The notes beneath the pieces were generated by a model that saw only the letters and a program-made list of their open reading frames with translations, searched no databases and was not told the DNA's origin. The position numbers and the translations under genes are program-made. DNA of 32,035 bases from NCBI GenBank assembly GCA_021162615.1, contig JAGGYH010000012.1:1-32035 (forward strand), written 5' to 3'. Origin of the DNA: Candidatus Aminicenantota bacterium (lineage in GTDB: Bacteria > Acidobacteriota > Aminicenantia > Aminicenantales > Aminicenantaceae). Within the stretch, counting starts at the first letter, position 1, and each line of letters starts with the position of its first letter. Positions 1,736 through 23,738 of this stretch are shown in pieces.

Positions 1736-1922
1736 GAAATTCAGATATGGCTGTCGCTTGCAAAAGATTTTTAACGCCATTCTCCTTCGTTTTTCTCGGC
1801 TCCTGCGTAACTCCCCCCGTTCGTGGGTCAGACATACTCGTCGCCCGGCTTTGCCGGGTACCCTCGAAAAGCCTCATTCGAAGGCTAAATCTTTTATGGC
1901 GCTTCAGCCACACCTGAATTTC
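1736..1922 (+). repeat. Full copy A of a structured intergenic repeat (about 187 bp)
   Basis: The element is bounded by inverted termini: GAAATTCAGATATGGC at the left and GCCACACCTGAATTTC at the right, which pair except at two G/A positions. Conserved blocks shared with copy B (23508-23695) include AGATTTTTAACGCCATTCT, AACTCCCCCCGT, CGTGGGTCAGACAT and GAAGGCTAAATCTT. An inner hairpin CCCGGC-TTT-GCCGGG (1844-1858) and outer pairing of CCTTCG (1784-1789) with CGAAGG (1879-1884) suggest a long imperfect stem-loop. A degenerate tail (AAGCA, then GACTGGATGAATAGGAT) follows to about 1950. It begins two bases after the comM stop codon. No conserved reading frame is seen. Confidence 0.85.
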
Positions 1923-2592: not shown

Positions 2593-3311
2593 AAAAAAGA
2601 TCCTTACTTTTGAGTTTAAGCTTGCTGTTTATTTTGACGGTCCTTACTGCCAGTGCAGTCTCAGGACGGCAGGAAAAAGGCTCTGATTTTGAGGAACAGG
2701 GCTTCATCGTCCTATTCAATAATAAGAACCTTGACGGATGGCGCAAGCTGACGGAATACAGCGGAGACTGCGGCCAGTGGACCGTTGAGGACGGAGTCCT
2801 GGTGGGGACCCAGTATCCGGAAGGAAAAGGCGGACTTCTTGTCACGCAAGAGAAGTATAAAAATTTTATTCTTTATGCGGAAGTCAAGGCTGATTATCCT
2901 GTGGATTCAGGCCTTTTTTTACGCGTCCAGCCCAGTGTTCTTTCGTATCAGATAACCATAGATTACAGACCTGACGGGGAAGTAGGGGCTGTTTACTGCC
3001 CCCTGGGAGGCGATTTTTTGCTCCATAATCCTGGGGTGAAAGAGTTGTGGAAAAAAGACGACTACAATCAGATTCTTGTGAGCATAAAAGGCCAGCCTCC
3101 TATCATCAAAGTGAGCCTGAATGGAAAAGAAGTGGTTGAATTTAAGGATGAGATGAAAGACGGAAGATACAGGGTCCCGGATGAGGGATTCATCGGAGTC
3201 CAGGTCCATCCCGGAGAAAGCTGGGGTAAGGGGAATCACGTTTATTTCAGAAAGATAATGGTAAAACCTCTTGTTATTGGGGACGCTCCATTAGGTACCA
3301 CCCTATATTAA
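2589..3311 (+). CDS. Secreted DUF1080 (3-keto-disaccharide hydrolase-like) protein
   Basis: A 240-residue protein with an N-terminal Sec-type signal peptide (MKKRSLLLSLSLLFILTVL, likely cleaved near residue 26), followed by a single DUF1080 domain. Recognisable parts are LFNNKNLDGWR (residues 41-51), WTVEDGVLVG, a middle stretch with SGLFLRV, and the C-terminal GFIGVQVHPG and VYFRKIMVKPL strands. DUF1080 has a concanavalin-like jelly-roll fold; some members hydrolyse 3-keto-glycosides and many have unknown substrates. It overlaps the upstream Tat protein gene by 4 bp. The last residues (about 12, after VKPL) are encoded by a REP-like inverted repeat beginning at 3279, beyond where the family normally ends, so the present C-terminus looks shaped by that element. 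The substrate cannot be told from sequence. Confidence 0.85.
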   Translation: MKKRSLLLSLSLLFILTVLTASAVSGRQEKGSDFEEQGFIVLFNNKNLDGWRKLTEYSGDCGQWTVEDGVLVGTQYPEGKGGLLVTQEKYKNFILYAEVKADYPVDSGLFLRVQPSVLSYQITIDYRPDGEVGAVYCPLGGDFLLHNPGVKELWKKDDYNQILVSIKGQPPIIKVSLNGKEVVEFKDEMKDGRYRVPDEGFIGVQVHPGESWGKGNHVYFRKIMVKPLVIGDAPLGTTLY

Positions 3312-3517
3312 TGAATCCGCTGGGTATAAAAAAAATATTTTAGATTGTTTCCTTCTGAAATGTTTCCATTTAATACCGCCCTGCAAGTCTGCAAACGTAA
3401 GTCCCTATATAGATTTGGTTCTGACGAGGAAGGATAAGGGAAAATTACATTCCGATAGTAAGCCGCGTACCTAAATGGGTGGTTCTATACTAGGGTGGTA
3501 CCTAATGGGACGTCCCC
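3279..3517. repeat. Inverted pair of REP-like 27-bp repeats at a convergent gene junction
   Basis: Left arm 3279-3305 reads GGGGACGCTCC then ATTAGGTACCACCCTA; the right arm 3491-3517 is its reverse complement except for two bases (GGGGACGTCCC instead of GGGGACGCTCC). The right arm contains the perfect palindrome GGGACGTCCC, and both arms contain GGTACC. A degenerate third motif (GTACCTAAATGGG) lies at 3467-3479. The 185 bp between the arms is AT-rich and has no gene. The left arm is translated as the end of the DUF1080 protein and the right arm supplies the last base of the hutI stop codon. The arrangement resembles a REP doublet or a small non-autonomous transposon; no transposase is present. 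Confidence 0.8.
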
Positions 3518-21249: not shown

Positions 21250-21260
21250 CTGTCTGAACT
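21243..21260. promoter_or_regulatory. Palindrome over the -35 of the NUDIX promoter, possible operator
   Basis: AGTTCA-N6-TGAACT is a perfect 6+6 dyad covering the -35 hexamer of the NUDIX promoter. Its size and position are those expected for a dimeric repressor site. The binding protein is unknown, and a chance palindrome of this size is possible. Confidence 0.4.
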
Positions 21261-21289
21261 CTTCATAAAAAATAGGGGTGAACGTATTT

Positions 21290-21328
21290 TTGCCTTTCAG
21301 GCAAGCCGATGTGAAATTCAGATGTGGC
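21290..21328 (+). repeat. Solo terminus of the dispersed repeat next to a small hairpin
   Basis: GTGAAATTCAGATGTGGCC (21311-21329) matches the terminal inverted repeat of elements A and B, but no second terminus or core block follows, so it is a truncated or solo end. A small hairpin TTGCC-TTTCA-GGCAA (21290-21304) precedes it. Confidence 0.55.
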
Positions 21329-21401
21329 CTGGACTGTTTACTTTTAATACAGGTGAACTGAAAAGAGGACATTTTTTAATGATGCATTTTCAGGGCTTCT
21401 C

Positions 21402-23496: not shown

Positions 23497-23506
23497 ATAA
23501 CCTGTG

Positions 23507-23738
23507 TGAAATTCAGATATGGCTTGTGCTCGCTAAAGATTTTTAACGCCATTCTTCGCACTGTGTTCTCGGCTGCTGCGCAACTCCCCCCGTCCGTGGG
23601 TCAGACATGCTCACAGCTCGGCTTTGCCGAGTTCCCTCCAACACAGCACTCAGAAGGCTAAATCTTCAATGTCGCCACGTCCACACCTGAATTTCAGAAA
23701 GCTCTCTTCAACCTCGACTTGTTCGTCATCCAGGATGG
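23507..23738 (+). repeat. Full copy B of the structured intergenic repeat, with tail
   Basis: The same element as at 1736-1922: TGAAATTCAGATATGGC at the left (23507) and CACACCTGAATTTCA at the right (ending 23696). The inner hairpin is CTCGGC-TTT-GCCGAG (23617-23631), a T-A pair replacing a C-G pair of copy A. CTGTGTT (23561-23567) pairs with AACACAG (23640-23646). The tail AAAGCTCTC then CCTCGACTTGTTCGTCATCCAGGAT runs to about 23736, close to the stop of the DUF4405 gene at 23750. This copy fills most of the gap between that gene and the M23 promoter. No reading frame is shared with copy A over the full length. Confidence 0.85.

Follow-up and report, generated by a model that had tools for sequence, protein, structure and literature searches.

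Dispersed palindromes in bacterial genomes are usually either short and tied to RAYTs or deletion derivatives of insertion sequences. Miniature inverted-repeat transposable elements (MITEs) carry the ends of an insertion sequence and are bordered by target duplications; together with the long palindromic repeats ERIC and Correia, they are dispersed and protein-free, have inverted ends, and are similar in length to the element described here. The IS110 bridge RNAs, HEARO, and omega RNA are structured molecules of about 150-250 nt in which stems covary and internal loops are conserved. Repetitive extragenic palindromes (REPs), which are 20-40 bp long with a GTAG or CGTC end tag and simple stems, are, along with BIMEs and REPINs, multi-copy, intergenic, palindromic, non-coding, and patchily distributed (PMC3733652, PMC2817692, PMC3116915). 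Here, we describe an element at positions 1736-1922 of a 32,035-bp window, the whole stretch of DNA that was analyzed, which is one whole contig (G000:C58) of the 2.85-Mb genome of a Candidatus Aminicenantota bacterium (the source genome). The element represents a family of modular hairpin repeats that is real and, within the searches made, undescribed, and in which stems change yet stay paired. Our reading, an even call in our judgment, is that the locus carries one copy of a modular hairpin element, dispersed and protein-free, whose spread occurs in trans and whose working form is a folded single strand.

The element has the multi-copy, intergenic, palindromic, non-coding, and patchy character of REPs, BIMEs, and REPINs, and CGTC REPs are likewise without a linked transposase (PMC3733652). 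However, it is 187-380 bp long (at least 187 bp) and without an end tag, its termini being GAAATTCAG or, in other genera, unrelated, and it is further set apart from REPs by conserved internal loops, a strand-specific fold, nested shells, and no RAYT link. As in MITEs, ERIC, and Correia, the copies are dispersed, without a protein, and of similar length with inverted ends, but the terminal inverted repeats shared within the source genome are not conserved between genera, no target duplication was seen, and it is the center rather than the ends that is conserved. A preliminary description of the locus had named a MITE-like element among the candidates; a MITE of the classical kind is not supported, given the lack of a target duplication and of terminal inverted repeats conserved between genera. 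The element is REP- or MITE-like in being dispersed and non-autonomous but fails the defining tests, and its likeness to either family is one of behavior. The likeness to IS110 bridge RNAs, HEARO, and omega RNA extends to the size range, structure, conserved internal loops, and covarying stems, with a covarying, conserved secondary structure on one strand, whereas Rfam gave no match at gathering or loose thresholds, no nuclease or transposase could be linked to the element, and IS110 genes were found in 7 of 15 carriers and not in the other 8. The motif letters appear in no relevant paper, and the REP surveys hold no description of the element.

Two full copies are present in the window, as the preliminary description had claimed. 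Copy 1 (1736-1922), a 187-bp inner element without outer shells, immediately follows the stop codon that ends a ComM-like open reading frame (211-1734), and copy 2 (23508-23695) is 81% identical to it by BLAST, with common blocks of 49 nt at 90% and 76 nt at 86% identity. The shared termini are GAAATTCAG (1736-1744) and CTGAATTTC (1914-1922) in copy 1, with the same pair at 23508/23695 in copy 2. The strand with the conserved fold is the minus strand of the window, which corrects the preliminary description; folded as RNA, copy 1 reached -63 kcal/mol (z -5.4) and copy 2 -53.4 kcal/mol (z -2.6). This motif strand folds as a rod of nested helices with conserved asymmetric internal loops between them; at the tip, its cap consists of an internal loop, GAGTATGTCTGA/GAGTTACGCAG, that is nearly invariant and a hairpin that varies. 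Copies from Aminicenantes also have a side hairpin, which gives rise to a three-way junction close to the tip. The tip module, consisting of closing helix, internal loop, and inner hairpin, spans 1790-1853 in copy 1 (62 bits to the tip covariance model R1; exact pattern match at 1803-1839) and 23563-23626 in copy 2 (51 bits). The side hairpin reads CCCGGC-TTT-GCCGGG in copy 1 (1844-1858) and CTCGGC-TTT-GCCGAG in copy 2 (23617-23631), so that the pair-keeping double change reported earlier is real and corresponds to consensus helix 4. A second such case, CCTTCG/CGAAGG against CTGTGTT/AACACAG, had mixed two helices that are not homologous, although the true copy-1 homologue, GTTTTTC/GAAAAGC, also pairs.

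An alignment of 54 copies from several Aminicenantes genera yielded 36 consensus pairs, with 97.1% of cells in standard pairs. Changes on both sides were seen in 20 of the 36 pairs, compared with 10.7 in shuffles and 6-9 when the partner was slid, and helix 4 had double changes at 5 of its 6 pairs. The repeat is not a product of chance, given at least 40 BLAST and 55 model matches in the same genome, and the strong covariation supported the earlier proposal of a folded, duplicated, non-coding element; a conserved reading frame, the other outcome that would have spoken against it, is not indicated by intergenic sites, both orientations, and stem-preserving changes. Within the consensus stems, G·U occupied 65 cells (14 columns) and A·C 16 (3 columns). 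Under RNA folding, the motif strand was more stable than its complement in 40 of 41 source-genome copies, in all 11 copies of one complete Aminicenantes chromosome, in 25 of 27 other Aminicenantes copies, and in 19 of 19 Saccharibacterial copies, giving 95 of 98 copies overall with medians of 10-21 kcal/mol. As this bias coincided with G·U far above A·C, the fold is maintained on one specific strand. Such strand specificity argues against a cruciform or pure arm-to-arm copying as the whole explanation and favors a folded single strand, either RNA or single-stranded DNA.

The exact tip pattern GAGTATGTCTGA-N(5-22)-GAGTTACGCAG matched 58 stretches in 257 Gb, where an estimated 0.1 or so would be expected by chance, and the pattern read backwards had no match in 13 carriers. 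Outside the Aminicenantes, the tip occurred in Saccharibacteria, Coriobacteriia, Atopobiaceae, Betaproteobacteria, one Gastranaerophilales metagenome-assembled genome (MAG), and other uncultured bacteria that have an element of like kind. Because the arms in these groups are unrelated, contamination by Aminicenantes does not explain the matches there; one match in a "Syntrophobacteria" MAG resembles an Aminicenantes copy and may be contamination. In 29 cross-phylum tip sequences, the inner hairpin and closing helix covaried, with 96% of cells paired and double changes at 5 of 6 pairs. The invariance of the loop was partly imposed by the exact-pattern search, and relaxed matches in the same genomes differed at few positions only. 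The distribution was patchy: of 287 genomes sampled from the phylum to which one Saccharibacterial carrier belongs, only 3 had the tip, the carrier itself being among the 3. As the tip motif is near letter-identical in unrelated groups, a putative factor probably recognizes the folded tip. At two Betaproteobacterial loci (L063 and L045) and the Gastranaerophilales locus (L086), a second, like hairpin, (T)TTACTTT...AAAGTAA, follows the element in organisms that are unrelated, and at L261:2700-3000 (G001:C63), the outer arms are kept while the tip is replaced by an unrelated CAATGGTCAATGGTCAATGCTGAATGG....

A multi-copy structured non-coding RNA is one alternative: the copies would be transcribed, and the RNA, by way of its tip loop, would bind a protein or aid its own spread. 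In its favor are the strand-specific fold, a count of about 7 G·U pairs for each element when RNA parameters are used, and internal loops that hardly vary across phyla although the helices on either side covary. The strand difference was also larger with RNA than with DNA folding parameters; however, the DNA parameters preferred the same strand. With no Rfam match and no promoter above chance level within or just beside copy 1, we consider this RNA possible but rather unlikely.

In the source genome, at least 40 places were matched by BLAST and at least 55 by model R1, and the true copy number is probably above 55 because several, or many, copies sit at contig ends. Searching relatives with the covariance model, as had been suggested, returned many more matches within the family: R1 matched 23 of 142 genomes of the class at E 1e-4 or lower, the majority of them from the same family and a few, with weaker matches, from four other families of the order. 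The source-genome copies are intergenic, and among those with both neighbors called, their orientation to genes is random (12 convergent, 9 divergent, and 18 codirectional). The site after comM, where copy 1 lies, is element-free in a same-genus genome and in five other genera. Using alignment-confirmed pairs of orthologous sites only, since a permissive motif search gave some false tip positions, one insertion (L017/L258) was found at the same place in two species, diverged with pairing kept, while another intergene held separate insertions in opposite orientation in the two species. At the 187-bp ends of 50 copies, there was no excess flank identity of 4 bp or more that would mark a target-site duplication. 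Two side observations concern individual sites: the intergene after comM in the same-genus genome G001 (L181) holds a different palindromic sequence built on AATCTGTATGCATA at the copy-1 position, and one intergene in G062:C5 (L058:1740-2150) holds a head-to-head pair of Saccharibacterial copies that differ in their arms, both within 200 bp.

Copy 1 is a strong hairpin just after a stop codon, as a cis-acting mRNA element (a stabilizer of the 3' untranslated region, an attenuator, or a bidirectional terminator) would be. However, random orientation and the lack of enrichment of convergent pairs do not suit such a role, and termination needs no elaborate conserved loops, leaving this already weak explanation improbable.

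GAAATTCAG, which had been taken for the terminus of the element, is not its outer limit: the 187-bp unit forms a core around which palindromic shells are nested to a total of about 380 bp. Many source-genome copies extend past GAAATTCAG/CTGAATTTC into outer arms, mostly to a total of 253-380 bp; one of the two arms reads TTAACCTGGATTATTCAC..GTCGAGGTTG and the opposite one TCGGCTTGCCTATATGGTAAAAAAATG..TGAATAGGTCAGGTTAA. In other copies, the left arm differs and contains GGAACCATGCCCGCTCGCC, and the outer shells of several copies terminate in TTAACCTGG/CAGGTTAA. In one Saccharibacterial genome, four copies with identical outer arms differ within, having inner arms of three kinds and tip hairpins of three kinds. 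That the same outer arms occur with differing inner arms and tips indicates that the element evolves by bilateral exchange of shells between copies, which probably occurs through gene conversion. Next to the element, several Aminicenantes genera repeatedly have the sequence AACCATGCCCGCTC(G/A)GCC (L041, L051, L060, L065, L067, and many source-genome flanks), which could be either one of the shells or a repeat in its own right.

The TTAACCTGG/CAGGTTAA ends would also be in keeping with plain insertion-sequence relics, that is, MITEs in which arm-to-arm copying (template switching) alone keeps the arms paired and the fold is unselected. The terminal stem in the source genome agrees with such copying, as it had 14 double changes, a number close to that of its broken pairs (19), and few wobble intermediates (3). 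Nevertheless, arm copying should erode non-complementary loops, yet the loops are nearly invariant, and it predicts no strand preference, yet the preference is strong; target duplications of at least 4 bp were also not found, and an IS1380-type transposase is absent from the source genome. Arm copying may add to the rate of double changes, but as the full account, it has little likelihood.

As partners, RAYT/Y1, IS1380, IS110, and reverse transcriptase were each rejected as either missing from some carriers or unlinked. Reverse transcriptase was found in 4 of 15 carriers and not in the source genome; like IS110, it is not present in all carriers. An autonomous partner with the same ends was sought in IS1380, which is absent from the source genome and has different ends in a relative; other insertion-sequence families were not searched. 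Because several carriers are incomplete MAGs, single absences are weak; still, none of the candidates is general. A phage or plasmid origin was also rejected, with no match in phage records, plasmid records, or viral contigs. Mobilization of a REP, BIME, or REPIN by a RAYT (a Y1/IS200-type transposase), which high-copy intergenic palindromes and two Y1_Tnp genes in the source genome might suggest, is largely refuted and very improbable, as Y1_Tnp was undetected in 7 of 18 carriers, no tip module lay near any of 22 Y1_Tnp loci, there is no GTAG-type end tag, and the RAYT-like gene of the source genome has another repeat, GGGGACATCCCATTAGG, on its flanks, RAYTs being reported always to be flanked by their own REPs (PMC2817692). 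The RAYT independence put forward in the preliminary description thus gained support from the carriers and loci surveyed.

For the dispersed, protein-free hairpin element that we favor, the likeliest mechanism is that a putative factor recognizes the tip in its folded state, with single-stranded DNA or RNA as the active form. The factor would bind the tip loop of the folded strand, which could be single-stranded DNA exposed in replication or DNA uptake, or RNA, and would bring about copying or insertion; whole shells would be swapped between copies by gene conversion, for which the conserved loops would supply the homology. Several points weigh against this reading. The shuffle controls overstate covariation because the copies are related, and the strand bias was absent in three betaproteobacterial copies. 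No exact pair of empty and filled sites was found, so transposition is inferred, and the insertion at L017/L258 indicates that some copies are old and vertically kept, which would fit a host function too. No mobilizing protein was identified among the Y1, IS1380, IS110, and reverse-transcriptase candidates.

More tentatively, and with somewhat more doubt than belief, the copies could belong to a hitherto undescribed superfamily of mobile structured nucleic acids that is defined across several phyla by the GAGTATGTCTGA/GAGTTACGCAG tip, spreads by a folded single-strand intermediate (RNA or single-stranded DNA) through a recombination or copying system, and evolves by nested-shell swaps. A near-invariant tip in Aminicenantes, Saccharibacteria, and Coriobacteriia despite complete stem turnover points to a widespread loop-recognizing factor and also to a new way of spreading, and the conserved tip offers a concrete bait with which to look for the partner. 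Some Saccharibacteria are in culture and genetically tractable (PMC10633639) and could serve as test hosts if a carrier is among them.

The window holds further traces of the family. Comparison of the flanks of 48 copies placed an outer-shell arm of copy 2 at 23696-23733, which reads AGTCGAGGTTG...CCTGGATG along the motif strand; of the arm on the other side, a deletion has left TAACCTG at 23498-23504. Two partial copies can be added to those described before: a half copy close to the contig start (53-98; repeat family D1) and a terminal fragment at about 21313-21331 (repeat family D5), preceded by outer-shell sequence at about 21255-21312. All of these, like both full copies and their modules, are assigned to the minus strand. 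A second, unrelated palindromic repeat of 239 bp lies at 3279-3517, with ends GGGGACGCTCCATTAGGTACCACCCTA/TAGGGTGGTACCTAATGGGACGTCCCC and about 4 more copies. Its ends match inverted repeats on either side of the source genome's RAYT-like Y1 transposase gene (L101, 4470-5200), and the repeat resembles a non-autonomous derivative of the element to which that gene belongs.
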